This document shows, piece by piece, positions 4,201-26,471 of a DNA stretch of 35,365 nucleotides; position 1 is the stretch's first letter; each line of letters starts with the position of its first letter. The stretch covers positions 1 to 35,365 of the forward strand of contig JAPPGU010000078.1 of assembly GCA_028821265.1 (NCBI GenBank). The letters run 5' to 3'. The notes below the pieces were generated by a model, which saw only the letters and a program-made list of their open reading frames with translations, did no database searches and was not told where the DNA came from. Source of the DNA: a bacterium (lineage in GTDB: Bacteria > Actinomycetota > Acidimicrobiia > Spongiisociales > Spongiisociaceae). The position numbers were made by a program, and so were the translations under genes.

Positions 4201-4814
4201 AGTCGGCGCGAGGCGAGGTCACCTTCGAGACGGAGGTGTTCCCGTCGGACCCGGCCTGGCTGGAGGACCACCGGGTCTTCGGCCGCCTCGTGGCGCCGGG
4301 CGCGCTGTACGGCGCGATGGCTGCCACCGCGTCGCTTACCGAGGGGAGCGGCTCGGTGGTCATGGAGGACCTACAGCTCCACAACCCGCTGGTGTTTCCG
4401 GAGCCGGCTTCCGGGAACGGCACCGGCGAGGAAGGGCGCACGATGCAGGTCGTGCTGGACGACCCCGACCAATCCGCGTCGCGCCGTGTCCAGATCTACA
4501 GCAGGGGAGCCGAGCCGGATTGGACGCTACATGTCGAGGGTCGGATGTCGGCAGGCGCCCCGATGCCGGAGGCGGGCCAGAGGATCGATCTGGACGAGGT
4601 GGCAGCCCGCCTGGCGCCCGCTGACGTCCCTGCCTACTACCGCGCCAAGTCCGATACCGGGATCGACCTCGGTCCGTCGTTCCGGACGCTGGGGAGGGTC
4701 TGGTCCGGTCCCGGCGAGGCAGTCGGTGAAGTGCTCCTGCCGGAGACGCTGGGCCGCAACCGCCTGGACGTGCATCCGCTGGTGCTGGCGGCTGCTTCCA
4801 GGTGGTGGGCATAG
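1299..4814 (+). CDS. Reducing type I polyketide synthase, N-terminal part (KS-AT-DH, frameshifted)
   Basis: First part of a large type I PKS. KS (about residues 28-455) has the full Cys202-His337-His377 triad (CASS, EAHGTGT, NIGH motifs). AT (about 585-890) has GQGSQ, the nucleophile Ser676 in GHSVGE and RAFH with His782, which fits a malonyl-CoA-type transferase. DH begins about residue 950 with HxxxGxxxxP (His991). The reading frame is then lost: the last codons read [11 protein letters not shown] and stop. If one A is restored after 4788, the translation becomes [13 protein letters not shown] and runs directly into the next frame, and the restored Asp is the second catalytic residue of the DH. 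So this and the next entry are one gene broken by a one-base deletion, either real or an assembly error. The start has a good AGGAG site. Confidence 0.9.
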   Translation: MTLKDLTGPSTQAPAPSVVGQREAFPAGQPIAIVGMACRFPGANSLESFWQVLAEGRNTVTEGIPGSGGERLADLFDDPDQNEACRFGAFVEGIDRFDAAFFRISPVEAELLDPQQRMMLEVSWQALEDAGIDPARLSGTRTGVYTGISNDEYRMMVVDSLKPSEAAGCLYALSGTNLNGASGRVSYVLGLMGPAKAVDAACASSLVAAHDAVADLQQGKADLAIVGGVQAILNTRIYELRADAMMLSPDGQCKTFDASANGYVRGEGCGVVVLKRLSEAVADGDRVWAVIRGAAVNHGGASTGLTVPHTPALEQVMETALSDAGVRSSEIDYLEAHGTGTSVGDPIEIDAVANVFAAERRPGRPLLIGSVKTNIGHLESAAGIAGLIKAALVVNRGVIPKHLHFHDPHPGVDWDRLPIKVTSSQMDWPSDYPGPRMAGVNSFGISGTNAHLVVEEHRDPDGAGGREPRTAGAAQAVPVSLPPLMGGVPLPAESLDGRRTRLLPLSAKSGIALGELAGRYLSWLDDRRTESGLADMAWTAGIGRSHFDHRAGLAFTDVDSLRAGLAALAEDGEGPEPRAATRVAFVYTGQGSQWAGMGRDLYEREPVARAVLDRCEEVFREARGTSLLDVMFGRPSAEGDLGDTAWEQPALYALECALTALWACAGVRPSVVMGHSVGELAAAQAAGVFTLEDGMRFAAARGSLLSGTDPGAMAAIFAPPERVESVVGKLNGSSSGAGVSVSAYNGAHQVISGPASGIDALLDRFRSEGIRARRLNTTRAFHSALVEPALDQLEAALDGMTIQPPAVTVISNLTGGPVEPGTALDGSYWRRHAREAVAFAQGVRAMGDLDVDLVVEVGPHAVLGPMATLAWPDGADGRNAPGAPVVLASMRRPRRNSSSPDPATGFVDAVAEAYAAGLEISFEGLFAGETRRRISLPGYPFQRERYWLDPAKRRRTEAGHPLLGVRYESARGEVTFETEVFPSDPAWLEDHRVFGRLVAPGALYGAMAATASLTEGSGSVVMEDLQLHNPLVFPEPASGNGTGEEGRTMQVVLDDPDQSASRRVQIYSRGAEPDWTLHVEGRMSAGAPMPEAGQRIDLDEVAARLAPADVPAYYRAKSDTGIDLGPSFRTLGRVWSGPGEAVGEVLLPETLGRNRLDVHPLVLAAASRWWA
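4786..4791 (+). other. One-base frameshift site inside the PKS dehydratase domain
   Basis: The sequence GGTGCTGG|CGGCTGC around 4781-4794 needs one extra A after 4788 to encode Leu-Asp-Gly-Cys, the expected DH motif (HPLVLDGCFQ). Both flanking frames are otherwise open and conserved for more than 1,000 codons each, so the lesion is recent or technical. It does not lie in a long homopolymer. Confidence 0.85.
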
Positions 4815-7800
4815 CCCGCAACATGGTCGGCGGCCCGGAGGAGGCGACCTACCTGCCGTTCGGCTGGGACGGGTTGTGGCTGACCCGGCCGCTCCCCGAC
4901 CGGGTGTTCTGCCACGTCCGCATGAACGAGGCCCCGCAGCGTACCGAGACGGAGTCGGGCGAGCCGCCGGAGGTCCTCAGCGGGGAGATGCGCATCTACG
5001 ACGCGGACGGGGTGCTCATCGGCGGGTTGAACGGCTACGCGGTGAAGCGCGCCACCAAGGCCGCCTTGCTTTCGGCGTTCGAGGGCGTGGAGGACCTCCT
5101 CTACGAGATCGCCTGGCGCGACCGTCCCCTCGAGTCGGGATTGAAGCCGGCCGACTTCTTCCCGACCCCTGCCGAGGTGGCGTCCGGCTCGGCGCTGTTC
5201 CCTGAATACCTGTCGGAGGCCGGGGTAGACCCCGAGAGCAGGAACGGCCTGCTGGCCGACCTGGAGCGGTGGTCGCGTTCCTACGCGCTCTTCAACCTGG
5301 AGAAGCTGGGTTGGCGCCGGACACCGGGTGAGGTCGTCGATCCCGACGAGCTGAGGGAGCGCCTGGGGGTCATCCCCGAACACCGCCGCCTCTTCCTCCG
5401 GATGCTGGAAATGCTGGCCAAGTCCGGGATCCTGGCCGAGACGGACGGCGGGTTCGAGGTGGTGCTGGGACCCGACGACCCGTTGCCGGAGGAACTACCC
5501 CCCGATCCCGAGGGGTTTGCCGAACACATGGCGGGGCTGTACTCCCACGGCCAGACCGAGGTCGGGCTGTTCCGCCGCTCCGGCGGCGCTCTGGCCGATG
5601 CGCTGCGCGGTGAAGCGGATCCGCTGACGCTCCTCTTCAGCAGCGGGGAACCCACCGCGGCCGACCTCTATCTCAAGGCGCCGGTGGCCCGCGCCGCCAA
5701 CGCCCTGTTGCGGGACGCGGTCCGGGCGCTCCTGGCCCGGCTCCCGGAGGGACGCAGGCTGCGGGTGATCGAGGTCGGGGCGGGCACCGGATCGGCCACC
5801 GCGTCAGTGCTGCCGGAACTTCCCGCCGGGCGCTTCGACTACGCCTACACGGACATATCGGCGGGCTTCTTCGCCGAGGCGGAGGAACGGTTCGGCGATG
5901 GAGACGGGTGCATCGAGTACCGGCCGCTGGACATCGAGAAGGATCCCATCGCCCAGGGTTTCGCCTCCCACGGCTACGACCTGATCATCGCCTCCAACGT
6001 CCTGCACGCCACGCGTCTCCTCGAGGAGACGCTGGGCCATTGCCGGGCCCTTCTCGCCCCGTCGGGTCAGCTGGTGGCGCTCGAGAACCTGCGCGGCCTG
6101 GGCTGGATGGACCTCACCTTCGGCCAGTTGGACGGCTGGTGGCGGTTCGCCGACGAGCACTACCGCCCCCACCACGCCCTGGCCACCCCTGCCGTGTGGC
6201 GCCGCGCCCTCGGGGACACCGGCTTCGAGGGGGTCGAGGTCCTGGGGGTCGACGACTCCTTCTCCTTCGAGATGCTGGACAAGGGCGTGATCGTGGCGCA
6301 GGGCCCGGCGCAGGTGGACGAGCCTCCCGGAGCCTGGGTCGTGGCCTACGGCGGCAACGGCGCCGCCGAGGAGCTCGCGCAGGAGCTGGCGGCGCGGAAC
6401 CAGACGGTCGTCCTGGCGGGCGGCCGGTTGCCGGAGAGCGAGGAGTCGGCCGTCGGGGGCTCGGTCATCAGGAAGGGCCTGGATACGGAGTGCCGGGAGT
6501 CGTGGCGATCCCTCGTCGAGGACCTACCCCCGGACGTTCCCTTCAACGGGGTCGTCCACCTGCAGGGCCTCGGAGGGCGCGGGCCGGAGGCAACCACCGC
6601 CGAGATGGCGGAGGACGTGCGGCAGGCCGGAGCGAGCGCGCTGGCCCTGATCCAGGGTGTGGCCGATTCGGCTGCGACGCCGGCCAACGGTATGTGGTTC
6701 ATCACCCGAGGGGCGCAGGTGCTCGAGCGGGAACGGCTCGGGGAGCTGTCCGGCTCGATCCTGTGGGGTGTGGGCAAGGTGGTGGCCCTGGAGGCGCCGC
6801 ACCTGCAGCCGCGCATGATCGATCTGGACCCCGGCGGCTCGGACTCGATGTCCGACCTCGTGGACGAGTTGATGTATCCCGACCACGAGAACCACATCGC
6901 CCACCGCGCGGGAGGCCGCCTGGCGGCACGCCTGGTCCGGCCCGACGCCGTGGCCGGGCGGCTGGCGCTGCCCGAGGAGCCGAACTGGGTGCTGGAACCG
7001 GACCAGGACGGCGTGTTCGACCGACCGCAGATCAAAGTGCTGCCGGCGCGCTCCCTGGCGCCCAGGGAGGTCCGGGTGGCGGTCGAGGCCTCCGGTCTCA
7101 ACTTCTGGGATGTCTTCCGCTCACTCGGCTTCATCGAGGAGGGGGACCTGGGCCGGGAGCTGTGCGGCTACGTGGTCGACACCGGCTCCGACGTCTCCAG
7201 TGTCAGTGTCGGCGACCACGTGGTGGGGCTCGGGTTCGGCGCCTTCGCCCCCGAGATGGTCACCCACGAGGAGTTGGTGGCGCCGGCGCCCGAAGGGGTG
7301 TCCCCCTCCGCCCTGGCCACCGTCCCCAGCGCCTTCGTGTCGGCCGCCCTCTCCTTCCATTACTCGGGATTGGAGCCCGGGGAACGGGTCCTGATCCACG
7401 CCGGGGCGGGCGGGGTAGGAACGGCCGCCATCCAGCTGGCACACGCCGCGGGTGCGGAGGTGTTCGCCACGGCCAGCCTTCCGAAGCACGACTTCGTCCG
7501 GTCGCTGGGCGTGGAGCACGTATACGACAGCCGTCAGACCGCGTTCGGCGACCAGATCCTGGAGGCCACCGGAGGAGAGGGCGTCCATGTGCTGCTGAAC
7601 AGCCTCACCAGCGAGGGCTTCATCGAGGCCGGGCTGGCGTGCCTGGCCGAGGGTGGTCGCTTCGTCGAGCTGGCCCGGCGGGACATCCTGACCCACGAAG
7701 AGATGGCGGAGGTCCGCCCGGACGTGGGCTACGACATCCTGGAGCTGGACGTGCTCAAGAAGACCGAGCCGGAGTGGGTGGGCGAGGTACTGCGAGAGGT

Positions 7801-10800
7801 GATGGACCAGCTGTCGGCGGGCGTGCTGGAGCCGCTCATCCACAGCAGGTGGCCGCTGGCCGAGGCCGGACCAGCGCTGGGGTTCATGCGGGCTGCCCGG
7901 CACCTCGGCAAGATCGTGGTGACGGCCAATCCCCTCGCCCGGGGTCGGCTGCGGCAGGACCGCACCTACCTGGTCACCGGCGGCCTGGGGGGCATCGGCT
8001 GTGCCGTGGCCGAATGGCTGGCGGACCGGGGCGCCGGGACCATCGTGCTGAACGGCCGCCGGGATCCCGATGCCGAGGCCCGGGAGACCACCGAGGCGTT
8101 GCGCCGGAAGGGGATCAGGGTCGAGGTCGAGCTGGCCGACGTGACGGACGTCGCGGCGCTCGACGCCATGCTGGCGCGCATGGACTCGGAGCTGCCGCCG
8201 CTCGGCGGCGTCATCCACAGCGTGGGGGTCCTGTCGGACGCCGCGCTGACCAACCAGACCTGGGAGAGCTTCGAGCGGGTGCTGTGGCCGAAGATCGTCG
8301 GGGCCTGGCACCTGCACCGGGCCACGCGCCACCGCGACCTGGACCTCTTCGTCCTGTTCTCGAGCCGGGTCGGCGTCATGGGCAATCCCGGGCAGGCCAA
8401 CCATGCCGCGGCCAATGCATTCCTCGACCAGCTTGCCGGGCACCGTCGCGCCCAGGGCCTCGCCGGACAGGCCATTGCCTGGGGAGCGTGGTCGGACATC
8501 GGAGAGGCGGCCGAGCAGCGGGAGCGGATCGAGCAGCGACGGGCGGCCCTCGGCGGTCGCTGGTTCACGCCGCAGCAGGGCATCCGGACGCTCGAGCGGC
8601 TGGTGCGCCAGGACAGCACGAACTCGGTGGTCATGTCGATGGACTGGTCGGTGTTCGAGGAGGCTGTCGAGGAACGGCCTTCCCTGCTGGAGGAGATGCT
8701 GTCCTCGGATGCCGGCGACGCGGCCGGCGCTTCCACCGCGGCGGAGGACATCGTCTCCCGGCTCGGAGCGACCCCTGCCGGGGACCGTGAGGACATACTG
8801 GCCTCCTTCCTGGCGGAGCAGGTCCAGGCCGTGCTCAGGCTGCCGAAGTCGCCGTCGCCCACGGTCGGGTTCTTCGATCTGGGCATGGATTCTCTCATGG
8901 CGGTCGAGTTACGCAACCGCCTGAACCGCGCTTTCGACGGCGAGTACGTCGCCTCCAACACCATCGTCTTCGACTACCCGGACATCGAGAGCATGTCTCG
9001 CCACCTCGCCGAAGAACTCGGCCAGCTCTCAGCGGTCGGCAAGGCTCCCCCATCGCCCGAGATCCCGGAACCGGAGCCCCCGGCTCCGGCCCCTAGCGAC
9101 GAGGACGGGATCGCGGTGATCGGTATGGCCTGCCGCTTCCCCGGCGCAAGCGATCTGGAGGCCTTCTGGGACCTGCTGGAGGGCGGCGTCGATGCGGTGA
9201 CCGACGGGCGCCAGGACGCCGGGTCATGGAGCGACGCCGTCGGGGACCCCGGTGCGGAGGATGTCGCGTACCGGCGGGGCGCATTCGTCGACGGGATCGA
9301 CTGGTTCGACTCGCGGTTCTTCCGGATCTCCCCGCTCGAGGCGCAGCTGATGGATCCCCAGCAACGCATGCTGCTCGAGACCACCTGGCAGGCGCTGGAG
9401 GACGCCGGGCTGGATCCGGACGGGCTCAGAGGCAGCCGCACCGGGGTGTATGCGGGAATCGGTAGCAGCGAGTACCGCGATCTGCTCCAGGCGGGCAGCA
9501 GGGCCGACAGCTACCTCGGGACCACCGGAAGCGTGGCCGTGGGTCGGATCGCCTTTGCCCTTGGTCTCGAGGGACCGGCGATGCCGGTCGACATGGCCTG
9601 CGCGTCTTCGCTGGCCTCGGTGCATCAGGCGGTCGTGGGCCTCCAGCGGGGCGAGGTGGACCTGGCGCTCGCGGGTGGTGTGAACGTGATCCTCTCACGC
9701 CCGGTCTCGAAGTTCATGATGGAGATCGGGATGCTGTCCCCCACCGGGCGGTGCTGTCCGTTCGACGCCTCCGCCGACGGTTACGTGCGCGGCGAGGGTT
9801 GCGGGGTGGTGGTCCTGAAGCGGTTGAGCGACGCTGAGGCGGACGGCGACCGGATATGGGCCGTCATACGGGGGTCGGCGGTCAACCAGAACGGCGCCAG
9901 CGCGGGCCTGACGGTGCCGAACGGCCCGGCTCAGGAGCGCGTCATGAAGGAAGCTCTCGTCCAGGCGGGCATAGCACCGTCCCGGATCGACTATCTGGAA
10001 TCGCACGCCACCGGCTCGCAACTGGGCGACCCGATCGAGTTGCACGCCGCGGCGGCGGTCTACGGCGACGGGCGTGACGCCGATCGCCCCCTGCTCGTCG
10101 GGTCGGTGAAGTCCAACATCGGACACGCCGAGTGGGCGGCCGGGATCGCGGCTCTCATCAAGACCGTTCTCTCGATGAGCCGGCAGGTCATCCCTCCGAT
10201 GCTGCACCTGCGGGACCCGAATCCTCACGTCGACTGGGACCGGATACCGGTCAAGATCGCGTCGGAGAAGACAGCTTGGCCGACCGTATCCGGCCGGCCG
10301 CCTCTGGCAGGTATCAACGCTTTCGGGCTGTCGGGGACCAACGCACATGTCCTGGTCGAGGGCTACGGTTCCGGTCCGGATTCTGCGGCGGCGGACGGAG
10401 TGGCCGCCCGGCCGGCCGGAAGCCCGCAAGCGGTACCGGCGATCCTTCCGCAAGCCATGGCCGGTTTCTCCGTGTCGGAAGCCGCGCCGCGCGGCGCTCG
10501 CCTGCTGCCGCTCTCCGGCAAGTCGCCCGGCGCGGTCAGGGATCTGGCGAGGCGGTACGTGTCATGGCTCGGCGGTCGGCAAGGTTCCGCCTCTGATCCC
10601 CTGCTGTCCGACCTGGCCTGGACCGCGGGTACAGCCCGGAGCCACTTCCCGCACCGCGCCGGGCTGGTGTTCACGGATGCCGACCAACTCCGGGAGAGCC
10701 TGGGGAGGCTGGCCGGAAGCTGCGGGGCGCCTGACTTGCGTGACGGCACGGCCAGGGTGGCATTCGCGTACACCGGCCATGACCGCCGATGGATGGCCGC

Positions 10801-11620
10801 GGGCGAGGCTCTCTACCGGAGCGAGCCGGTGGCGCGTGCGGTGCTGGAACGCTGTGGTGAGGCACTCGGAGAAACCCTGAACGTATCACTGCTCGATGTG
10901 ATTTCCGGCCGACCCGGAGCAGGCCAGCACCTGAACGATCCTGCCCTGGTCCAGCCACTCTCCTACGCACTTGCCTGCGCGCTGACCGCGCAGTGGGCGA
11001 GCGTCGGCATCCGCCCCGCTGCGGTGGTGGGGCATGGTCCGGCAATCCTGGCGGCGGCGCAGGCGGCAGGTGTGCTCAGCCTGGAGGAGGGTCTGGGGTT
11101 GGCGGCGGAACTGGGCGCCCGGCAGAGGCCGGGCCCCGGCTGGGACCCGCAAGCAGCTCTCGACGGTCTGGAGGCGGAGGTGGCCGGCCTCACCCTCTCG
11201 GCGCCGTCCATCTCCCTCGTCGACGGTTCGGACGGCCGGGTGGTGGGGTCGGTCGACGATCTCGACATAGCCATCTGGCTCCGGCAGGCCACCGGACCGG
11301 CCGGCCTTTCCGCCTCCGCCGGCACCCTGGCCGGGCTCGGGACGGATGTGGTCATAGTGATCGGTCCCGACCCGACGCAGGGGAGGGCCATCCGTGAGGC
11401 CTGGCCGGAGTCCGGGGCGGCGCCGACCGTGCTCTCCGCCCTGGTGGGTTCCCGGGGCGACGCCGAAACGGCGGAGGCCGACGGCGGGTTCCTGAGCGCG
11501 GTGGCGGGCGCCTACGAGGCCGGGGTGGACATCTCGTTCGCCGGCCTGTTCGCCGGCGAGGTCCGGCGCCGGATCTCCCTCCCCGGCTACCCGTTCCAGC
11601 GCCGGCGGCACTGGATCTAG
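4802..11620 (+). CDS. Reducing type I polyketide synthase, C-terminal part (DH end-cMT-ER-KR-ACP-KS-degenerate AT)
   Basis: Continuation of the PKS in the shifted frame. The GTG at 4802 has no ribosome-binding site and is probably not a natural start. Order: rest of DH (1-110); C-methyltransferase (about 300-510, VGAGTGS near 325); enoyl reductase (about 715-1030, NADPH loop AGAGGVG near 867); ketoreductase (about 1050-1235, TGGLGGIG) with His1201 where the catalytic Tyr is usual; ACP with Ser1364 in GMDSL. A second KS follows with a complete triad (Cys1600, His1735, His1775), then an AT remnant in which the nucleophile Ser is Gly2079 (GHGPA), GQGSQ is lost and about 100 residues including the RAFH His are missing. 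No ACP or thioesterase follows. The first module should make a fully reduced, alpha-methyl-branched acyl chain; the job of the terminal KS is unknown. Domain order resembles fungal highly reducing PKSs and the Sup-type single-module PKSs of sponge symbionts. Confidence 0.9.
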
Positions 11621-11655: not shown

Positions 11656-13170
11656 ATGCGACCCAACATCCTCCTGGTCATGGCCGACCAGTTGGCGCCG
11701 CATTTCACGGGCGCCTACGAGCATCCGCTGGTCCGCACCCCGGCCATGGACAGCCTGGTGGAGCGGGGCGCCCGCTTCGACGCCGCCTACTGCCCGTCGC
11801 CGTTGTGCGCGCCTTCCCGGTTCGCCATGATGACGGGACAACCGGTGTCGGCCATCGCCGCCTGGGACAACGGCGCCGAGTTGCCGGCGTCGGTACCGAC
11901 CCTCGCCCACTACCTCCGGCTGTCCGGATACCGCACCACGCTGTCGGGGAAGATGCACTTCGTCGGTCCCGACCAGCTGCACGGCTTCGAGCGCCGCCTG
12001 ACCACCGACATCTACCCGGCCGACTTCGCCTGGACACCCGAATGGGAGTCGTCAGACGACCGGATCGACAAGTGGTTCCACGGGATGGACAGCCTGGCGG
12101 AGGCCGGCCGGGCATCGGCGACCTACCAGATCGACTACGACGAGGAGGTGGGCTTCGCCGCCGTCAGGCACCTCTACGACATGGCCCGCGACGCCGACGA
12201 GCGGCCCTTCTTCCTGGTCGCCTCCTTCATCCACCCCCACGACCCCTACGTGGCCCGCCCCGAATGGTGGAACCTCTACGACCACGACCACATCGACCTG
12301 CCCGACGTTCCGCCCCACGACTCTCTCGACTCGCACACCCGGCGCATCCGCCGGGCCGTCCAGGCCGAGAGCGTCGGCTACGACGAGGCCGGATGCCGCA
12401 ACGCCCGTCATGCCTACTACGCCAACACGAGCTACTTCGACTCGTGGGTGGGCGCCCTCCTCCAAGCCCTCACCGAGACGGGACAGGTCGACGACACGGT
12501 GGTCATCGTGACCAGCGACCACGGCGACATGCTGGGCGACCGCGGCACATGGTTCAAGATGTCGTTCTTCGAGCGCTCGGCGCGGGTGCCGCTCATCATG
12601 GCGGGCCCCGACATCACCAACCGCGCCGTCCCCAACGCCTGCTCGCTGCTGGATCTGCTGCCCACCCTTCTGGACATCGCCGCCGGTGGTGGACGCTGGC
12701 CGGAGTTGGCCGGAGCACCGGCCGGTCGCAGCCTGTGGGAGAGCGCCGCCGGCGGACGGGACCCGGTCGACGAGACCACCTGCGAGTACATGGCCGAGAT
12801 GACCACGCACCCGATGTTCATGATCCGCCGCGGGCGCCACAAGTACATCCACTGCGACACCGACCCTCCCCTCCTGTACGACATGGAGGCCGACCCGCTG
12901 GAGCGGATCAACCTGGCGGAGGATCCCGCCCATGCCGATCTCGCCTCGGGCTTCTCCGCCGAGGTGGCCGAGCGCTGGGACAGCGACGCCATCCGAGAGC
13001 GGGTGCTGGCCTCGCAACGCACCCGGCAGCTGGTCCACGCCGCGATGGCGACCGGTGACCCGGTCTCCTGGGACTACGCACCGGCGCGGGACGCGGCCAA
13101 CGAGTACGTCCGCAACCACATGGACTGGAACGTGGTTGGCCCCCGCTACCTCCTCCCGGAGCTCGGCTGA
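11656..13170 (+). CDS. Choline-sulfatase-like type I sulfatase (copy 1)
   Basis: A 504-residue cytosolic arylsulfatase-superfamily enzyme with no signal peptide. Cys51 in LCAPSR is the CxPxR site that a formylglycine-generating enzyme converts to the catalytic aldehyde. Metal and substrate elements include NILLVMADQ at the N-terminus, GKMHF, HPHDPY and TSDHGDMLGD. The ADQ tripeptide and the FKMSFFE..ARVPLIM block are characteristic of BetC-type choline sulfatases (choline-O-sulfate to choline plus sulfate), so that is the best guess; another small organosulfate is possible. It begins 35 bases after the PKS stop and overlaps the next gene (TGATG), so the PKS, both sulfatases and the oxidase could be one transcript. 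Confidence 0.85.
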   Translation: MRPNILLVMADQLAPHFTGAYEHPLVRTPAMDSLVERGARFDAAYCPSPLCAPSRFAMMTGQPVSAIAAWDNGAELPASVPTLAHYLRLSGYRTTLSGKMHFVGPDQLHGFERRLTTDIYPADFAWTPEWESSDDRIDKWFHGMDSLAEAGRASATYQIDYDEEVGFAAVRHLYDMARDADERPFFLVASFIHPHDPYVARPEWWNLYDHDHIDLPDVPPHDSLDSHTRRIRRAVQAESVGYDEAGCRNARHAYYANTSYFDSWVGALLQALTETGQVDDTVVIVTSDHGDMLGDRGTWFKMSFFERSARVPLIMAGPDITNRAVPNACSLLDLLPTLLDIAAGGGRWPELAGAPAGRSLWESAAGGRDPVDETTCEYMAEMTTHPMFMIRRGRHKYIHCDTDPPLLYDMEADPLERINLAEDPAHADLASGFSAEVAERWDSDAIRERVLASQRTRQLVHAAMATGDPVSWDYAPARDAANEYVRNHMDWNVVGPRYLLPELG

Positions 13171-14699
13171 TGGCCGGCTCGTCCGCTCAGCCCAACATCC
13201 TGCTGGTGATGGCCGACCAGCTGGCGCCGCAGTTCACCGGCGCCTACGAGCACCCGGTGGTCCGCACCCCGGCGATGGATGCCCTAGTGGAGCGAGGCGC
13301 CCGCTTCGACACCGCCTACTGCCCCTACCCGCTGTGCGCCCCGTCCAGGTTCTCGATGCTGACGGGCCAACCGGCCACGGCGATCGGCGCGTGGGACAAC
13401 GGCTCGGAACTGCCGGCGTCGGTACCGACCCTCGCCCATTACCTCCGGCTGGCCGGCTACCGCACCACGCTGTCGGGGAAGATGCACTTCGTGGGGCCCG
13501 ACCAGCTCCACGGCTTCAACCAGCGCCTCACCACCGACGTGTACCCGGCCGACTTCGCCTGGACCGCCAACTGGGACGAGGCCGCTGACCGGATGGGCAA
13601 GTGGTGGCACAACATGACCAGCCTGTCGGAGGCCGGCCAGGCACTGGCCACCTACCAGATCGACTACGACGAGGAGGTCGGATCGGCAGCCGTGCGCCAT
13701 CTCTACGACACGGCCCGCGACACCGACGAGCGGCCCTTCTTCCTGACCGTCTCGTTCATCCACCCCCACGATCCCTACGTGGCCCGCCCCGAATGGTGGA
13801 ACCTGTACGACCACGACGAGATCGACCTGCCCGACGTGCCCCCGGCCGCGTCGCTGGACCCCCACACCGTCCGCATCCGCCACGGCATCGAGATAGACGC
13901 GGTCGGCTACACGGAGGACCAGTGCCGCAACGCCCGCCGCGCCTACTACGCCAACACGAGCTACGTCGATTCCTGGCTGGGCAGGCTGGTGGAGGTGCTG
14001 GAGGAGACCGGGCAGTTGGACAACACGATCATCATGTTCACCAGCGACCACGGCGACATGCTGGGCGACCGGGGAGTGTGGTTCAAGATGTCGTTCTTCG
14101 AGCGCTCGGCCCGGGTACCGCTCATCATGGCCGGGCCCGACATCACCAACGGCACGGTCCCCAACGCCTGCTCGCTACTGGACATGGTGCCCACCCTGGC
14201 CGACATCGTCACCGGCGGCGGAGCCTGGATGGAGTTGGCCGAAGCACCGGCCGGGCGCAGCCTCTGGGAGAGCGCCACGGGAGGCCGCGACCCCGTGGAC
14301 GAGACCACCTCCGAGTACACGGGGGTCATGACCTCCCACCCGATGTTCATGATCCGCCGCGGACGGTACAAGTACATCCACTGCGACACCGACCCCGCCC
14401 AGCTATACGACCTGGAGGCCGACCCGCTGGAGCGGGACAACCTGGCCGAGGATCCCGACCATGCCGACCTCGCCTCGGGCTTCGCCACCGAAGTGGGCGA
14501 GCGCTGGGACAGCGACGCCATCCGGGAGCAGGTGCTCGCCTCGCAGCGAGCCCGCCGGGTCGTCCACGCCGCCATGGAGGTAGGCGACCTCCACTCGTGG
14601 GACTTCTCGCCCTCGAGCGACGCCACCAACCAGTACATCCGCAACCACATGGACTGGGCCGACGCCGGACCCCGCACCCGTTACCCGCCGGTCGCCTGA
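13170..14699 (+). CDS. Choline-sulfatase-like type I sulfatase (copy 2)
   Basis: A 509-residue paralogue of the preceding gene, alike along its whole length with long identical stretches, so a fairly recent tandem duplication. The formylglycine site is Cys56 in LCAPSR. The GKMHF, HPHDPY and SDHGDMLGD metal or substrate elements are all kept, so both copies look active. The ATG overlaps the upstream stop (TGATG), indicating translational coupling. Differences cluster in the middle loop (about residues 125-150) and near the C-terminus, which could mean slightly different substrates. The oxidase gene follows after 21 bases. Choline or related methylated amines released from sulfate esters could feed amine oxidation, but that link is inference. 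Confidence 0.85.
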   Translation: MAGSSAQPNILLVMADQLAPQFTGAYEHPVVRTPAMDALVERGARFDTAYCPYPLCAPSRFSMLTGQPATAIGAWDNGSELPASVPTLAHYLRLAGYRTTLSGKMHFVGPDQLHGFNQRLTTDVYPADFAWTANWDEAADRMGKWWHNMTSLSEAGQALATYQIDYDEEVGSAAVRHLYDTARDTDERPFFLTVSFIHPHDPYVARPEWWNLYDHDEIDLPDVPPAASLDPHTVRIRHGIEIDAVGYTEDQCRNARRAYYANTSYVDSWLGRLVEVLEETGQLDNTIIMFTSDHGDMLGDRGVWFKMSFFERSARVPLIMAGPDITNGTVPNACSLLDMVPTLADIVTGGGAWMELAEAPAGRSLWESATGGRDPVDETTSEYTGVMTSHPMFMIRRGRYKYIHCDTDPAQLYDLEADPLERDNLAEDPDHADLASGFATEVGERWDSDAIREQVLASQRARRVVHAAMEVGDLHSWDFSPSSDATNQYIRNHMDWADAGPRTRYPPVA

Positions 14700-18930: not shown

Positions 18931-19797
18931 CTACGTCTTGGGTCGTAGCTCGAAGATCATCGATACCCGGGACGTGACCACCTCGGAGCCGCCGAACACG
19001 GGCGTGGGCGCGGCAGCCGACTCCGCCGCCACCGCATCGTCCCCTTGCATCCTCTCGACGGCTGCATAGGGATCGAAGCCGGCCGGGGTGATCCTGACGA
19101 TCCGCACGATCTCGTACCCCATGTGCCCGGCGATGGCCCGGGCGGTCGCCTGGGCGTCGTCGATGGCATCGAGCAGGGCAAGCCGCTCGAACTCGGCACG
19201 GCGGGAGACGGTGAAGTCCAACCCGTCGAAGCGGACATGGTCTCCCCCGCTGTTGATCACCATGTCGACCAGCCCGCCGGCGAACCCGGTGCCTCGGATG
19301 GCGATCGACAGCCGGTTCTCGTAGAGGAAACCGAGCGACACCCGGCCCTGGTCGGTCCAGTCGAACTCCTCCCGGATGCGGATGCTCACCGTCTGCAGGC
19401 CGTTCGGGGAGATACAGGTCGGAGGCGCCGTGTGATCCGCCGTCTCGGGCTCGGTCTTCGTGCAGTTCTCGGCGACCGCGTCGGCGATGGCCTGGACCGC
19501 CTTGTTCCCGTCCGACACCGCGGTGATGAGCGAGTCACGCAGCACGCTCACCGTGAACCGGCCGATGGCGCCGTCGTAGCTGACGCTACGGCTGCCGACA
19601 CCCTCCACCGCCAGTTCCGTCAGTTTCGGCTCCCCCATCTCGACCTCGCCGGGCATGGTCGATCCGTTCCCTTCCCCCTGTCCTGCTCGCGCAGAGGGCA
19701 GGAGCGCGGGCGTGCTCACTACGGCCAGCACGATGATCGCCACCAGCATCACCTTGACCGTCCGGGACATACCCGGAACCCGTATCGCTTCCCTCAT
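18931..19797 (-). CDS. Exported SIMPL-domain (DUF541) protein
   Basis: A 288-residue protein with an N-terminal hydrophobic signal (VKVMLVAIIVLAVVSTPALL, cleaved near SARA) and a SIMPL/DUF541 domain. Visible family features are the VEGVGSRSV start, a periodic helix of the NKAVQAIADAV type, and the LDAIDDAQATARAIAGHMG helix near the C-terminus. SIMPL proteins are periplasmic or secreted and of poorly defined role. The open frame extends 34 codons further upstream, but ATG at 19797 has GGAGG six bases before it and gives a proper signal peptide. An insertion with two cysteines lies mid-domain (ENCTKTEP..PPTCIS), possibly a disulfide. It is divergent from the thioredoxin-like lipoprotein, so a shared promoter region and envelope role are plausible. 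Confidence 0.8.
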   Translation of the reverse strand: MREAIRVPGMSRTVKVMLVAIIVLAVVSTPALLPSARAGQGEGNGSTMPGEVEMGEPKLTELAVEGVGSRSVSYDGAIGRFTVSVLRDSLITAVSDGNKAVQAIADAVAENCTKTEPETADHTAPPTCISPNGLQTVSIRIREEFDWTDQGRVSLGFLYENRLSIAIRGTGFAGGLVDMVINSGGDHVRFDGLDFTVSRRAEFERLALLDAIDDAQATARAIAGHMGYEIVRIVRITPAGFDPYAAVERMQGDDAVAAESAAAPTPVFGGSEVVTSRVSMIFELRPKT

Positions 19798-19925
19798 CTC
19801 GATCCTCCAGATAGTTGCCGGCCGGCGCTCGACCGCGTCGATGCTCGATTCCACACACTCGAAACCTAGTGATACTGGCCGGGTATCCTGGCGCGGCACT
19901 CACCCTCCAGGTACGCGGAGCGGAC

Positions 19926-20840
19926 TTGCGGCTGATCCGTTCGGTAATAGCTATGGCACTACTGGCCGGCGCGGTCATGTCTTGCGGTGGAGACGCCACC
20001 GGTCCTGCCACCACTCAAGCACCCCCCGATCCGGGCACCACCATCGACTCCAGCCCTGCTCCGGAAGAGGCGACCACCACCGTTGCGGACACGGCGGCGA
20101 CCGTGGCCACTACATCCGAGGCACCCGATACAACCATCGGAACGACCGAGCCGGAACCGATATCCACCACCTCGGCGACGACATCGTTAACGACGGCCGC
20201 CTCGACCTCCGAGGAAACGGCAAACACCACCGAGCCGTCCACCACGACGACCGTGGCAGCCGAGACCACCACTACCACCGCCGCAGCCGAGACCACCACT
20301 ACCACCGCCGCAGCCGAGACCACCACAACGACCGCTGCTGCGGAGACCACCACGACCACCACCGAGGCCCTGGTAACCACCACAGCCGTACCGGCGACGA
20401 CCACCACCGCGCCGCCCGCCACCGCGATCTCCGATGACGTGCCCGACATCGAGATGTTCGACGCGGCCACCGGAGAGCTGGTCAGCCTGCGGTCGGTCGT
20501 CAAGGGCGAGAAGCCCCTGATGTTCTGGTTCTGGTCCCCATTCTGAGAGACGTGCCGGGAGGAAGCCCCGGGCATCGAGCAGTTCGCTCGGCAGCACTCC
20601 AACCGACTCACCGTCATCGGAATCGGCGGTGTAGGCACGCTCGAGATCGCGCAGGAATTCGTGGTCGAGAAGGGGGTCACGTTCACGGCGCTCTGGAGCG
20701 AGGCGCGCGACGCCTGGGAGTACTACGGGATGAACAGCACGTCGGACTTCATGCTCCTCGACAGGTTCGGCAACCGCCTGACCGAACCCGCACCCTATGA
20801 GGAGCAACTCGTCATCCAGCTTCTGGACGAACTGACCTGA
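19926..20840 (+). CDS. Thioredoxin-like lipoprotein, probable selenoprotein (in-frame TGA at UxxC)
   Basis: Read from TTG 19926 (GGAG five bases upstream) the product is 304 residues. It has a lipoprotein signal ending AVMSC|GG, a long Thr/Ala/Pro-rich linker with 9-residue repeats, then a thioredoxin/TlpA-like domain. TGA at 20544-20546 (residue 207) interrupts the domain exactly at the redox motif: FWSPF-TGA-ETCREEAP. Thioredoxin-fold relatives have W-x-P-x-C-x-x-C here, so the TGA takes the place of the first Cys, with Cys210 as partner. After the TGA, 97 codons stay open and domain-like (LTVIGIGG, FMLLDRFGNRL) to a stop at 20838. The best reading is Sec insertion giving a UxxC extracytoplasmic thiol oxidoreductase. 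A nonsense mutation is the alternative; then the product would be a Thr-rich lipoprotein without a redox domain. Confidence 0.7.
20256..20363 (+). repeat. 27-base tandem repeat encoding a Thr/Ala-rich linker
   Basis: Four in-frame copies of a 27-base unit encode AAETTTTTA-type blocks. The first two copies are identical and the last two diverge at third positions. They form the extended linker between the lipid anchor and the thioredoxin-like domain, probably spanning the cell wall and possibly O-glycosylated. Copy number is likely to vary between strains. Confidence 0.85.
20553..20590 (+). promoter_or_regulatory. Candidate bacterial SECIS hairpins
   Basis: Two stem-loops follow the TGA. Hairpin A (20553-20574) pairs TGCCGGG with CCC-GGGCA, one bulged G, loop AGGAAGC, with its loop G about 14 bases after the TGA. 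Hairpin B (20576-20590) is CGAGC/GCTCG with loop AGTTC, loop G about 35 bases after the TGA. Bacterial SECIS elements lie in the coding sequence just after UGA with a G early in the loop, so either could recruit SelB; B fits the usual spacing better. Which one is used, if any, cannot be decided by eye. Confidence 0.4.
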
Positions 20841-20876: not shown

Positions 20877-22064
20877 CTAGATCTGGTCCAGGCTTCTCTT
20901 CACGAAGGTCCGGTCGAGGGCGAAGGGTGACTCCTCGATCCGCCCGGTGATCAGGTCGGCCAGGATGCGACCCCCCGCCGGGGAGCACATGATGCCGTGA
21001 CCCGAGTAACCGCTGTTGACCCACAATCCGTCGATGGGCGCCTGCCCTATCAGGGGGCGGTGGTCGGGGCTCATCACGTACTGCCCGGAGTGGACCATCC
21101 AGGAGAGCTCTCCCCTCCTCCAGGCCTCGCCCCAGAAGGGACTGATCCGGGCGGCGGCGTCCGGACTGGAGGGATCCAGCACCCGGAACGCCATGCCGGA
21201 ACTGGGAGGGACATCCTCCACGGGATCCCTTCCAGGCCCCCGGGGCGCGGCGTCCAGCAATGCGGCACCCGCCAGGGCGGGGCGCCAATGCGTGCCGGTG
21301 TCGTCATCGATCGTCATGGGCGCGTCAGGAGGGACCCGCGCCAGATCGGGCACCACCACCTTGTGGCGGGGCTTGACCTCCAGCGGCAGTTCCACCCCGA
21401 GGAGGGCGGCCAGCCTGGCCGTGAAGGGTCCGGCGGCTATCACCACCTGTTCGGCCCGGATGTGACCCCTGTCCGTGCCCACGTCGAAGCCTCCCGCGGG
21501 AAGCTCTCGGAGCGACACCACCCGGCACGAAACGTGGAGCGGGGCGCCTGACGCCCGCAGCAGCCCCAGGGTCAGAGCCCTCGGATCGGCGAAGCCGTCG
21601 TCCGCCCGGTAGCGGGCACTGACCACCTCACCACTCAGATAGGGGAACCTGCGCCTTGCCTCGTCCCCGGTCAGGATCTCGATGTCGGTCTGCCCCCAGG
21701 AGTGCTGGCGAGCCACCAGCCGCCGCTGCTCCACAGCCTTTTCCTCGGACGTGGTGGCCCAGAGGTACCCCGGCTGCCTCACCGCCAGCCCGGCCGCGTC
21801 CTGGCCGGTGATCGCGGCGAAGTTCAGGATCAGGTCGACCGTCTCGCGCACCAGGTCGGTCTCCTCCCGGTTGTCGAACTGCAGCCGGAAGGCACCGGTG
21901 GAAGCCGGGGTGGTGAGCGAGGCGGCCACAGGCCGGGCCTCCAGCACCACCGGCGACAGCCCGGCCCGCGCAGCCCAGAACGCCGTGGACGCCCCGACTA
22001 TCCCGGCCCCGATGATCACCAACTCCGCGCCGGCCGGAAGGCCCCTGTCAACCTCGGATACCAT
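20877..22064 (-). CDS. FAD-dependent oxidoreductase (DAO family), second copy
   Basis: A 395-residue DAO/glycine-oxidase-family flavoprotein. The dinucleotide-binding GAGIVGAS motif is at residues 19-26, followed by VVLEARPV and STGAFRLQ (FAD loop). The C-terminal NSGYSGHGIMCSPAGG block is the second FAD motif. It is only distantly similar to the oxidase at 14721-15830, so the substrates are likely different. Candidates are sarcosine-like secondary amines or D-amino acids. It has no signal peptide. The ATG has no strong ribosome-binding site. It lies 75 bases downstream of the sterol methyltransferase on the same strand and could be co-transcribed with it, although no functional connection is obvious. 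Confidence 0.8.
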   Translation of the reverse strand: MVSEVDRGLPAGAELVIIGAGIVGASTAFWAARAGLSPVVLEARPVAASLTTPASTGAFRLQFDNREETDLVRETVDLILNFAAITGQDAAGLAVRQPGYLWATTSEEKAVEQRRLVARQHSWGQTDIEILTGDEARRRFPYLSGEVVSARYRADDGFADPRALTLGLLRASGAPLHVSCRVVSLRELPAGGFDVGTDRGHIRAEQVVIAAGPFTARLAALLGVELPLEVKPRHKVVVPDLARVPPDAPMTIDDDTGTHWRPALAGAALLDAAPRGPGRDPVEDVPPSSGMAFRVLDPSSPDAAARISPFWGEAWRRGELSWMVHSGQYVMSPDHRPLIGQAPIDGLWVNSGYSGHGIMCSPAGGRILADLITGRIEESPFALDRTFVKRSLDQI

Positions 22065-22139: not shown

Positions 22140-23174
22140 CTATGCCGGTTTGCGGGCGTGGATGAAGTACGCCGGTGTGAAGATGCCGAGCCGGCCGGCC
22201 TCGACCAGGGCGACCGCGCAGATGTTCAGGGTCTCCGACACCCGGACCGATCCCTTCGGCGCGATGCGGAGGGCCTCCAGCAATCTGAGCGAGACCTGGG
22301 TGATCGAGCGTCCGATCCTCGAGCTCCGGAAGGTCGCCAGCGAGATCCCCGAACCCACCAGGGGTTGGTACCAGGGAACCGACGGACCGGTCGGCACCGT
22401 GACGTCCCGCGTCTCCAGCACCTCGAACCCCACCGCCACGAGCGCTTCGTCGACCGTTCTGCGCTCGTCGAGCTCGAGTATGCCGCCGCCCAGCTCGATG
22501 TCGGCCTTGATCCTCCGGTGGAGGGGATCCTCGGGGTCGTAGCGGTCGGTCATGCACCACTCGTAGGAGGCGAAGCAGGCGCCCGGCTTCAGCAGCCGGA
22601 ACGCCTCGCCGTAGATGCTGACCTTGTCCGGGGCGTGGCAGGTCGCCTCTATGGAGAAAACGGCGTCGAACGAGCCGTCAGGAGCGTCCACGTCGAGGAA
22701 GTCGCAGTGCATGAATTCGGCCAGATGGGTCAGCTCCGCCTCCTCCGCATACTTGCGGGCGTGCTCGAGCTGGTAGGCGTTGCTGTTGACGCCCACGATC
22801 CGGGCGCCGGTGAACCGGGCGATCTCCAGGAGCGGCCCGCCGACGCCGCAGCCGAGGTCGGCGACCACCATGCCGGGTCCCAGCCCGAGCTTGTGGGCCA
22901 GGTAGTGCTGGTGGCGGGCCAGCGACGCCTTGAAGCTCTCGCCGGGGACCCGAGGGGCGAAATGGAACGACCTTCCCCACCCGAACTCGAAGAAGTCCGT
23001 GACCACGTTGTAGTAGAGATCGTTGATCTCCTTGTGGTCGAGCGGTGTCCTCTCCCGCTTGTCACGACGAGTCGTGCGGAAGCGCCGGTCGTACTCACCG
23101 ATGGTCCGGGCGATGCCGGAAGTGGCGCCCTTCAGGGAGTTGGAAAGTTTGAACGCCACGGTTCTCTCCAGCAT
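22140..23174 (-). CDS. Sterol C-24 methyltransferase (SMT/ERG6-like)
   Basis: A 344-residue SAM-dependent methyltransferase with the full eukaryotic-type sterol C-24 methyltransferase layout. The aromatic sterol-binding block is at residues 54-73 (YYNVVTDFF, FEFGWGRSFHFA). The SAM motif LGCGVGGP is at 107-114. EATCHAP is at 176-182 and YEWCMTD at 204-210. A C-terminal sterol-MT domain (about 275-344) ends in IFTPAYFIHARKP. ERG6/SMT adds methyl groups at C-24 of the sterol side chain. Generic small-molecule methyltransferases lack the GWG and YEWCMTD blocks and the C-terminal domain. The ATG at 23174 was preferred to a TTG 18 codons upstream. Bacterial SMTs are known from uncultured, largely marine bacteria. 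No squalene epoxidase or oxidosqualene cyclase gene is in the window, so the sterol may be host-derived or made elsewhere in the genome. Confidence 0.88.
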   Translation of the reverse strand: MLERTVAFKLSNSLKGATSGIARTIGEYDRRFRTTRRDKRERTPLDHKEINDLYYNVVTDFFEFGWGRSFHFAPRVPGESFKASLARHQHYLAHKLGLGPGMVVADLGCGVGGPLLEIARFTGARIVGVNSNAYQLEHARKYAEEAELTHLAEFMHCDFLDVDAPDGSFDAVFSIEATCHAPDKVSIYGEAFRLLKPGACFASYEWCMTDRYDPEDPLHRRIKADIELGGGILELDERRTVDEALVAVGFEVLETRDVTVPTGPSVPWYQPLVGSGISLATFRSSRIGRSITQVSLRLLEALRIAPKGSVRVSETLNICAVALVEAGRLGIFTPAYFIHARKPA

Positions 23175-23269
23175 GCCTTGCGACAACCCACCCCGGGCAC
23201 CGTAACGAGGGGCCCGCGCCGCTGTCAACCATCGACTGGCCGCTCAGCCCGGTCGAAAGCAGATGCCCG

Positions 23270-24420: not shown

Positions 24421-24453
24421 GATCACCGGCCACTAACCACTGGCCACCGGATC
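24421..24453. terminator. Hairpin between convergent cyclophilin and SpoIID genes
   Basis: GGCCA at 24428-24432 pairs with TGGCC at 24441-24445 around an eight-base loop. Outer GATC/GATC pairing (24421-24424 with 24450-24453) extends it with small internal mismatches. It overlaps the stop of the minus-strand SpoIID gene and lies just past the cyclophilin stop, as expected for a shared terminator. There is no T tract. Confidence 0.4.
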
Positions 24454-26427
24454 GAATAGTTGGTCGAGAGCCCGCACCACGAAGGTGGCCATCTCGGCCC
24501 GGGACACGGGCCGGTCGGGGCAGAACCGCAGCGGATCGGTGGAGCACCCCGCGGTGATGTCGGCCGCGGCCAGGGCATCAATGTCGGCCTCGTGGGAGCC
24601 CCCGGTATCCGTGAAACCGGCCGACCCGGCGCGTTCCAGTTCGAACGCCCTCACCAGGAACGTGGCCATCTGGCCCCGAGAGACGGCCGAGTCCGGGCAG
24701 AACCGCGGCGGATCGGCGCCGCATCCCTTGGTCACCTCGAGTTCGGCGAGACGCTCCACATAGCCCGCCCACCATTCACCGGGATCCACATCTTCGAACC
24801 GCGTCACGGCATTGGAAGGCTCGAAACCCGGGTCGAGGACCCGGACCATCCACACCGCCATGGTCGAGCGCTGGAGGGGCAGCCCGGGGCAGAAGAGCCG
24901 CGCGCCGCACTCGGTGCCGTCCAGGACGCCCGCCTCCGCCAACCGGTCGATCGAAGCCTCGAAGACACTGCCGTCATCGTCTTCGAAGCTGCCCGACCCG
25001 GCGGGTTGTCCAGGTTCCTCAGGGTCGTCGGCCGGCGGAGGGGCCACGCCGTCGATGGCCGTGATGTTGGAGGACTTGAGGCCCAGCTTGGTCCGGAAGT
25101 CGGCCCCGGCGACCGTTACCGACACAGGGTCGCCGCCGCGGACACCCCGGAACAGGACCCGCGCCGGGGAGGACAGGGACTCCCGGTCGACCAGGACCGC
25201 CTCGGTGACGTCGTCCCATCCCAGCCAGGTGGCCAGAGAGGCGGCGCTCACCCGCTCCTCCCATGACGCGTTCGGGTTGCCTACGGCCGGGTCCACGTCC
25301 CACGGGTCCGCGACCGGTCTCAGGTAGGGCCACTCCGTTCCCGGCGTCCTGCCGTCCCACTCGGTGAAGAACCCGTACACGTTGGTGCGGGTGATCCCGC
25401 CGGATGAGGCGGAGAAGAACGTCTGGACGATCCCCGCCTTCGTGTACCTCTCCCAGCCGGCGCCGAAGTAGGTGAGCACCCGGTCCCTGGTGCTCACCAC
25501 ACCGTCGAGCCAGGGCTGCCCGTTCGAGCGGGTCTCCTTGGCCCAGCCTATGTAGTTGATGTCCCGCCAGCTGTCGTAGAGATGGCACCAGCAGCTGTCC
25601 TTGCGGGCGGCGTTGATTCCCGGATCCTCGTCGGGGTCGGCGGGGCGCGGCCCGGTCTCCCACAGGAAGAACTTGTAGGCCGCGTAGGAGCGGGACGTCA
25701 CGGCCTGGGCCTCGTTCACCCCCGGCGCCGACCAATGGTCCAGCACCTCGGCAACGCCGCGGAGGTAGTCCTCGAGCCCGATCGCCAGGACCACGTGGAA
25801 CCCCACCTCCACGGGGTCGTCCCGTATCTTCAGCTCCCCGTGCCGGTACTCGCAGACCTCGTTGGTGCGGGATGCGCACAGCTTGGCCCTGCTCTCACCG
25901 TGACGGAGCCGCACCCCGGCCGCGTCGGGCCACGAGATGGACGCCCGGCAGCTACCGGCCGTTCCCTGGAGCGCGCCACCGTGGAAGAAGCCGCACTGGC
26001 CGCGGGCGATGCGGCGGAACTCCCACCGCTCCCCCGCCTGGGGATGCTGCGGCTTCGGGCACGGACCCGCACCGTCGTCCGCCAGGCACAGATCGAGGGG
26101 ACCTCCCACGGCGGTGAACTCCAGCAGGGTGATCTGGGACCCCAGATTGATCCACAGCGGGTTGTCCAGCGTGTAGAGCAGGTCGTTGGGCAGGGCGAGA
26201 TCGCTCAGGGACCCCGGCGCCGAGCCCGGGAAGTAGTAGGCGGCGATGTCCTCGCCCGGCTTGGCCGGATCGGCGAGGGCTTGGCCCAGAGCGCCCCACT
26301 GGCCCATACCCACGCCGTGGCCCCATCCCGCGCCCTCGAAATCGAACCCAGGCGTGTGGTGGGCGTCTGCCCCGACAGCCGGGAGCAGCCCCACCAAGAG
26401 CAGTACGACGAGCACTCTCCGGACCAC
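24433..26427 (-). CDS. Exported SpoIID/LytB-domain protein with SLH-like repeats
   Basis: About 664 residues. The N-terminus (VRRVLVVLLLVGLLPAVGADA) is a classic signal peptide if the GTG at 26427 is used; a TTG ten codons earlier is the other option, and neither has a clear ribosome-binding site. GWGHGVGMGQWGA follows directly, then a SpoIID/LytB core with GLEDYLRGVAEV and AVTSRSYAAYKF and the SSGGITR segment. SpoIID-type domains act on peptidoglycan glycan strands (lytic transglycosylase-like or amidase enhancer). After a Pro/Asp linker come three 50-60-residue repeats containing FCPD..VSR..MATF[LV]VRA, S-layer-homology-like modules common in actinobacterial secreted proteins and thought to bind the wall. 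Likely role: cell-wall remodelling or anchoring. Confidence 0.85.
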   Translation of the reverse strand: MVRRVLVVLLLVGLLPAVGADAHHTPGFDFEGAGWGHGVGMGQWGALGQALADPAKPGEDIAAYYFPGSAPGSLSDLALPNDLLYTLDNPLWINLGSQITLLEFTAVGGPLDLCLADDGAGPCPKPQHPQAGERWEFRRIARGQCGFFHGGALQGTAGSCRASISWPDAAGVRLRHGESRAKLCASRTNEVCEYRHGELKIRDDPVEVGFHVVLAIGLEDYLRGVAEVLDHWSAPGVNEAQAVTSRSYAAYKFFLWETGPRPADPDEDPGINAARKDSCWCHLYDSWRDINYIGWAKETRSNGQPWLDGVVSTRDRVLTYFGAGWERYTKAGIVQTFFSASSGGITRTNVYGFFTEWDGRTPGTEWPYLRPVADPWDVDPAVGNPNASWEERVSAASLATWLGWDDVTEAVLVDRESLSSPARVLFRGVRGGDPVSVTVAGADFRTKLGLKSSNITAIDGVAPPPADDPEEPGQPAGSGSFEDDDGSVFEASIDRLAEAGVLDGTECGARLFCPGLPLQRSTMAVWMVRVLDPGFEPSNAVTRFEDVDPGEWWAGYVERLAELEVTKGCGADPPRFCPDSAVSRGQMATFLVRAFELERAGSAGFTDTGGSHEADIDALAAADITAGCSTDPLRFCPDRPVSRAEMATFVVRALDQLFDPVASG

Positions 26428-26471
26428 CTGCCGAGTGTAGGAGTGCTCTGTTAGCAAGACGTCAGGGCCCC

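Follow-up and report, generated by a model that had tools for sequence, protein, structure and literature searches.

A gene at positions 19926 to 20840 of the window very probably encodes a selenoprotein, as relatives across its class of bacteria apparently do, and incorporation of selenium into its product is predicted. The window is the whole stretch of DNA analyzed (35,365 nucleotides); it is one entire contig (C32), and the draft genome to which it belongs has 2.6 Mb in 87 contigs and is 84.56% complete. The prediction is strongly supported by the presence of Sec decoding machinery in the genome, by a TGA codon shared by 33 of 33 close homologues, and by a SECIS hairpin that is linked to this TGA. 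Sequence evidence shows the Sec codon, the decoding machinery, the SECIS hairpin and the class of fold to which the protein belongs. We infer the export of the protein, its display on the surface, the direction of its redox reaction and its substrate.

A conserved TGA codon at the redox position

The features of the gene are as follows.

19926..20840, + strand: gene of the selenoprotein, a predicted lipoprotein; TTG at 19926 as the presumed start, UGA as Sec codon at 20544, stop TGA at 20838-20840
19926..19985, + strand: predicted lipoprotein signal sequence ending in VMSC, recognized by eye; lipobox Cys codon at 19983-19985
19986..20435, + strand: low-complexity stalk rich in Thr and Ala; 59 of its 151 residues (lipobox Cys counted in) are Thr
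20436..20837, + strand: thioredoxin-fold domain, DsbF/TlpA-like (AlphaFold2 pLDDT 94.6; Foldseek), with Ser replacing the usual cis-Pro
20544..20546, + strand: Sec codon (UGA), N-terminal position of the UxxC redox motif
20553..20555, + strand: partner Cys codon (TGC) of the UxxC motif; Cys in 33 of 33 close homologues

Upstream of the TGA at 20544-20546, the frame is open for 243 codons from the previous stop, or 206 codons from the presumed TTG start. This start is found in eight of 11 orthologues examined, the window gene among them (two of the others had no match to the search motif, and one differed), and GGAG precedes it in seven of the eight. The residues around the TGA read FWFWSPF-U-ETCREEAP, and in an alignment the N-terminal active-site Cys of both DsbF and MPT53 falls in the TGA column. 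The original prediction placed the TGA, in frame, at the first Cys of a thioredoxin CxxC (FWSPF-U-ETC), with the partner Cys kept and 97 further in-frame codons downstream; the alignment, the TGC at 20553-20555 and a count of the codons up to the TGA at 20838-20840 bear this out. Rfam and tRNA scans of the window gave no matches.

Close homologues were sought in 99 genomes of relatives. Of the 15 genomes from the window's own family, 12 gave strong matches (E-value of 2.1e-53 or better), each with one internal TGA, and the remaining three gave weak matches only. The TGA is also present in further paralogues of that family and in the best matches of all eight sampled genomes of family f7, which belongs to the same order. 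The TGA and a Cys three residues on are found in all 33 close homologues (12 orthologues and 21 paralogues or sister-family members), both in the alignment and in a search for exactly that pattern. Because this holds down to 37% identity, the earlier argument that a TGA at the redox Cys is beyond chance is sustained. Frame damage in related strains was also looked for and was not found; the frames remain open for 97-113 codons after the TGA.

These observations bear on the possibility that the gene is a pseudogene, its protein cut short by a nonsense mutation in a Cys codon, or that the TGA is a sequencing error. The lone TGA, in a frame that is otherwise ordinary and in an incomplete draft assembly, could be read in this way. 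However, a sequencing error would have to have arisen repeatedly, in 12 species and also in paralogues, and a pseudogene is at odds with the intact frames, with purifying selection after the TGA (dN/dS of 0.28 over 36 pairs of genus orthologues; 0.05 for the part of the domain before the TGA), and with a SECIS that is tied to the TGA. We regard the chance of this explanation as negligible.

Conservation of the TGA within the genus was not used as evidence. In a negative control, TGA-interrupted frames were compared across six syntenic loci, and overlapping and antisense frames were found to keep their TGA as well; because many meaningless frames of the window do so, such conservation is uninformative. 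An attempt to find other selenoproteins in the window through TGA conservation in these six loci was abandoned on the same grounds. The case for a selenoprotein rests on distant homologues and on the SECIS, not on genus-level conservation.

Aligning homologues, which had been suggested as a check, gave TGA alone among close homologues and both codons among more distant ones. In a local comparison, all matches with E-values of 1e-17 or lower have TGA, and the first Cys appears at 3.3e-10 (L030). A Cys in a 37-residue fragment, located where L021 is cut off (1.8e-9), is probably a misalignment, because the full copy in L066 has TGA. Of 395 genomes of the class, 214 contain a match to a family profile at an E-value of 1e-12. 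Among 50 further class members, the aligned codon is TGA in 38 and Cys in 12, which is not a frequency because 40 of the 50 were picked among the matches listed (the other 10 loci were given). A phylum-wide draw yielded matches at 1e-20 in 14 of 396 genomes, seven of them outside the class, with TGA in L160, L169 and L170 and Cys in L165-L168. Reading down to the codon covered 71 TGA genes plus L160, L169, L170 and L172, which is a part of the TGA matches listed. Viral contigs gave 51 pattern matches, none of which encodes a relative, and plasmid records gave five distant relatives (24-31% identity).

The predicted SECIS hairpin and the Sec decoding machinery

Two RNA elements are predicted downstream of the UGA.

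20556..20574, + strand: weakly supported 5' helix, placed after the UGA and before the SECIS hairpin; variable, with different registers in different members
20575..20591, + strand: predicted bacterial SECIS hairpin; stem UCGAGC/GCUCGG with outermost pair U-G, apical loop AGUUC at 20581-20585

The hairpin spans +32 to +48, has a stem of 6 bp and the family loop RGUUN, and places its loop 34 nt from the UGA. The nucleotide block after the UGA is nearly identical even though the proteins fall to 37% identity, and positions +32 to +37, +39 to +41 and +43 to +47 are invariant in 28 distinct sequences of close homologues. The Ala codon at +14 is GCT in 33 of 33 (GCT is 10% of the Ala codons elsewhere in these frames), a choice that is partly attributable to hairpin pairing.

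Presence of the hairpin follows the codon. At least five of the six pairs are formed in 67 of 71 TGA genes versus none of 12 Cys genes of the class, in any of which at most three pairs are kept; no Cys gene outside the class keeps more than three either. All six pairs are formed in 59 TGA genes, whereas seven lack only the outermost pair and one lacks an inner pair. The hairpin is absent in four TGA genes (L136, L139, L141 and L143). Judged by eye, L136, L139 and L141, which are divergent, seem to have another hairpin, CCUCGGUCGAGG, whose loop is GGU.

In the alignment used to assess covariation (A3), from which these four hairpin-less genes were omitted, 97.8% of hairpin cells are paired over 61 distinct sequences, and changes on both sides occur in three of the six pairs. 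The 5' helix has 51.6% of its cells paired in one common register; because this register is only half supported, the helix is not counted within the SECIS. When the two helices are assessed jointly, sliding the partner by 1-3 columns lowers pairing from 71.4% to 33-38%, and the covariation score is above that of 500 of 500 shuffles. In the same shuffle control, the number of pairs with changes on both sides was reached by 28 of 500 shuffles and is only weakly above chance, and further pair types are not above chance (301 of 500).

A covariance model assigns 45-53 bits to three genes outside the class that were absent from model building. The model fails to split the four hairpin-less TGA genes (13.3-26.7 bits) from the best Cys gene, because the latter, L126, scores equally high (26.8 bits; at most 18.3 bits for the other Cys genes). 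Within the window's own genome, a fixed-pattern SECIS search matched the window site alone, and the covariance model gave 19 matches at E-values up to 10, the window site included. Another of these matches, G000:C71:37597 (L145; 22.9 bits, E-value 0.006), reads LFWAEW-TGA-PSC and is TlpA-like, after a Thr-containing stretch. It looks true, and L145 is a second predicted selenoprotein of this genome. Two of the 17 weaker matches were inspected: L146 is a Cys gene, and L149 has no sensible frame.

The components of Sec decoding, for which a search of the source genome had been proposed, are all encoded there. The tRNA-Sec scores 77 bits (cut-off 47) and has anticodon TCA according to ARAGORN. 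The selA gene scores 422.6 bits and is adjoined by selB (315.8 bits when joined), and selD scores 380.2 bits. The selD gene has one in-frame TGA of its own (L054, 1531-1533), followed at a similar distance by a hairpin, GCGCAGGUCCUGCGC, identified by eye; SelD is therefore probably a selenoprotein.

The hairpin and the machinery also argue against the idea that the UGA is translated as another residue, through Trp or Cys suppression, or is passed by low-level read-through without Sec. Such read-through alone would also preserve the downstream frame, but the gene's own normal stop is TGA (20838), homologues have Cys at the site, and a conserved SECIS-like hairpin marks the TGA genes in a genome that has Sec machinery. 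We assign this alternative a very small probability, and take the UGA to be a Sec codon.

Across genomes, TGA genes and Sec decoding tend to occur together. Among the matches listed, 77 genomes have at least one match with TGA and 30 have only matches without a stop; 70 of the former encode a tRNA-Sec, versus 11 of the latter (Fisher P 2.6e-8, with relatedness ignored). The selA gene is present in all seven TGA genomes without tRNA-Sec above the cut-off. Because G277, G334, G271 and G287 are 93-97% complete and have selA and TGA genes but no tRNA-Sec above the cut-off, they may hold a divergent tRNA-Sec or an assembly gap. By contrast, selA is absent from all seven Cys-only genomes checked, which were picked from the 19 of 30 without tRNA-Sec and of which six belong to one family (f29). 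Other selenoproteins could explain the tRNA-Sec in 11 Cys-only genomes.

The gene had been thought an unusual actinobacterial selenoprotein, a view that we do not retain. Sec is widely used in this class of Actinobacteria, in which 246 of 395 genomes have tRNA-Sec and most family members that were read have TGA; for other Actinobacteria, the Sec trait has already been published, as excerpts of one report indicate (PMC5029168). Many very small genomes (0.6-1.1 Mb) of family f12, genus g65, are among those with tRNA-Sec.

On a tree of 83 members, in which many forks are unresolved and several branches are long, the Sec/Cys label requires six changes, at least four of which are forced by well supported branches. 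The Cys genes L113 and L125 (the latter on a long branch), both hairpin-less, have positions among Sec genes that point to a reversion to Cys; because the tree has a midpoint root, we infer this direction of change. The tree also places the protein of L091 (G341, family f2) together with that of G040 (family f7), and the two genes are identical over 51 bases from the TGA on; the L091 contig is therefore possibly mis-binned.

Protein architecture, likely function and gene context

The protein, whose C-terminal domain has 134 residues, scores above the Pfam cut-offs for Redoxin (39.8 bits versus 26.6) and AhpC-TSA (39 bits versus 26), and slightly below that for Thioredoxin (23 bits versus 23.5). 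Its closest solved relatives by sequence are DsbF (3ios, 1.7e-13) and MPT53 (1lu4, 1.3e-8) of Mycobacterium tuberculosis. The AlphaFold2 model is confident and predicts a thioredoxin fold in which helix 1 begins with the redox pair; DsbF and MPT53 are also the top structures found by Foldseek, with ResA next. The window protein has Ser at the cis-Pro column, as is the case for 24 of the 25 family members, and Pro is kept in one family member and in all eight sister-family members read. Because of this replacement, ordinary thioredoxin chemistry is not assured, and we call the domain TlpA/DsbF-like, not canonical TlpA/DsbE-type. Sec at the first motif position should be a strong nucleophile, and work on thioredoxin variants indicates that Ser at the cis-Pro position could alter substrate release or permit metal binding.

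A lipoprotein on a Thr-rich stalk, as originally proposed, stands as a prediction, given the VMSC lipobox and the abundance of Thr. Paralogues carry the selenoprotein domain behind SLH repeats (L058 and L065) or RCC1 repeats (L056), and these fusions lend support to the predicted cell-surface role. The claim that the protein is surface-anchored agrees with the lipobox and with the SLH-fused paralogues, and is kept as a prediction drawn from sequence.

The product is probably an extracytoplasmic thiol-disulfide oxidoreductase. In the mechanism that we propose, SelB with Sec-tRNA(Sec) would bind the hairpin 32-48 nt 3' of the UGA, and selenocysteine would be placed at the N-terminal position of the UxxC motif. 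The product would then be exported and acylated at the lipobox Cys, so that the DsbF/TlpA-like thioredoxin-fold domain would be displayed on its long Thr-rich stalk outside the cytoplasmic membrane. Sec would act as the attacking nucleophile and, with the Cys three residues on, perform thiol-disulfide exchange. Most likely, disulfides or selenenylsulfides of other surface proteins would be reduced or isomerized.

It is also conceivable, although we think it unlikely, that the selenoprotein does not act as a thiol-disulfide oxidoreductase but as a peroxidase that depends on Se, or that it binds metal or selenium at the surface. Loss of the cis-Pro, the stalk, and the higher Pfam scores of Redoxin and AhpC-TSA relative to Thioredoxin are in keeping with such a role. 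Nevertheless, the UxxC motif with Sec first matches the CxxC of DsbF, MPT53 and ResA, and these oxidoreductases are the best structural matches. Thiol-disulfide exchange is therefore the function that we prefer.

Two genes flank the selenoprotein gene.

18931..19899, - strand: SIMPL (DUF541) domain protein; beside the selenoprotein gene in 5 of 9 related contigs
20877..22064, - strand: FAD-dependent oxidoreductase (DAO); beside the selenoprotein gene in 6 of 9 related contigs

By tblastn synteny, both neighbors are kept in five of the nine contigs; a sixth contig, which ends beside the gene, has the FAD gene only, and L065 (same genus), L066 and L067 have neither. Given retention in five of nine, no functional partner is obvious among the neighbors.

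The window contains other genes as well. A sterol methyltransferase-like protein (22140-23228, - strand; PF08498 Sterol_MT_C, 7.5e-23), encoded close to the selenoprotein gene, is found in six of nine related contigs. Bacterial sterol methyltransferases of sponge symbionts bear on the debate over the 24-isopropylcholestane biomarker (PMC10070321); the strings 'Acidimicrobi' and 'Actinobacteri' are absent from the main text of that report. An SLH-domain protein (24433-26457, - strand) has C-terminal repeats that resemble those fused to selenoprotein paralogues; the best matches, in L065-L067, are about 54-56% identical. The window also encodes a polyketide synthase-like protein of 1171 aa (1299-4814; ketoacyl synthase, acyltransferase and dehydratase), followed by a frame of 2272 aa (4802-11620), and two adjacent sulfatases with a choline-sulfatase C-terminal domain (11656-14699).

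Relation to known selenoproteins and SECIS elements

Taken more broadly, the data may reflect a class-wide group of Acidimicrobiia surface selenoproteins, carried on Thr-rich lipoprotein stalks or SLH or RCC1 repeats and sharing one inherited SECIS (a variable helix and a near-invariant RGUU hairpin). The window family lacks the cis-Pro and so may have another chemistry, such as metal binding or substrate trapping, and Sec may be ancestral, having reverted to Cys in several independent events in which the hairpin was lost as well. We offer this broader interpretation tentatively, at slightly under an even chance. Gene callers that treat UGA as a stop truncate the protein inside its catalytic domain; a surface redox system that is widespread in Acidimicrobiia is therefore probably mis-annotated. 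The family also offers bacterial SECIS elements that vary naturally, together with Cys genes for comparison, and these could be used to study SelB recognition outside E. coli and how Sec and Cys interchange.

In the literature consulted, partly in excerpt, we found no earlier description of the class-wide RGUU SECIS, the surface-display architectures or the loss of the cis-Pro. Open-literature searches returned, by titles, nothing relevant on selenoproteins or selenocysteine in Acidimicrobiia or Actinomarina, and no selenoprotein linked to S-layer homology or to MPT53/DsbF; absence from print is not implied.

The active-site surroundings WFWxPxCxxC of M. tuberculosis DsbF (3ios) and MPT53/DsbE (1lu4) are common to the window protein. 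However, the first motif position is Cys in these proteins and Sec in the window protein, and the alignment places Pro of DsbF at the column where the window protein has Ser. To our knowledge, DsbF and MPT53 have no long stalk.

The NCBIfam model NF041054 (WAxxUGC) matches 18 of the 33 members weakly (best 6.4e-8) and does not match the window protein at E-values of 0.001 or below. The bacterial SECIS model outlined in excerpts of a recent report specifies a loop of 3-9 nt, a stem of 4-16 bp, a G in the first two loop positions and a distance of 16-37 nt from the UGA (PMC13188914). The window hairpin is like it in having a 5-nt loop, G at the second position followed by U, and a distance of 34 nt; unlike it, the hairpin is near-invariant over much of a class and is preceded by a variable helix.

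Table 1 of the same report lists a 'Redoxin family protein' (PF08534) with UxxC as a predicted prokaryotic selenoprotein family. The window protein shares its Pfam family and UxxC motif, a likeness based on the Pfam match and the description; the excerpts do not mention a stalk, an SLH fusion or a class-wide SECIS (PMC13188914). Also tabulated there are a 'Thiol-disulfide isomerase-like protein' (cd02966) with UxxC and TlpA-like selenoproteins containing UGC. Judging from these entries, they have a TlpA-like fold with Sec first in the motif, as does the window protein, in which the motif is UETC instead of UGC. As a predicted selenoprotein, the window protein belongs with the known UxxC redoxin/TlpA-like selenoproteins.
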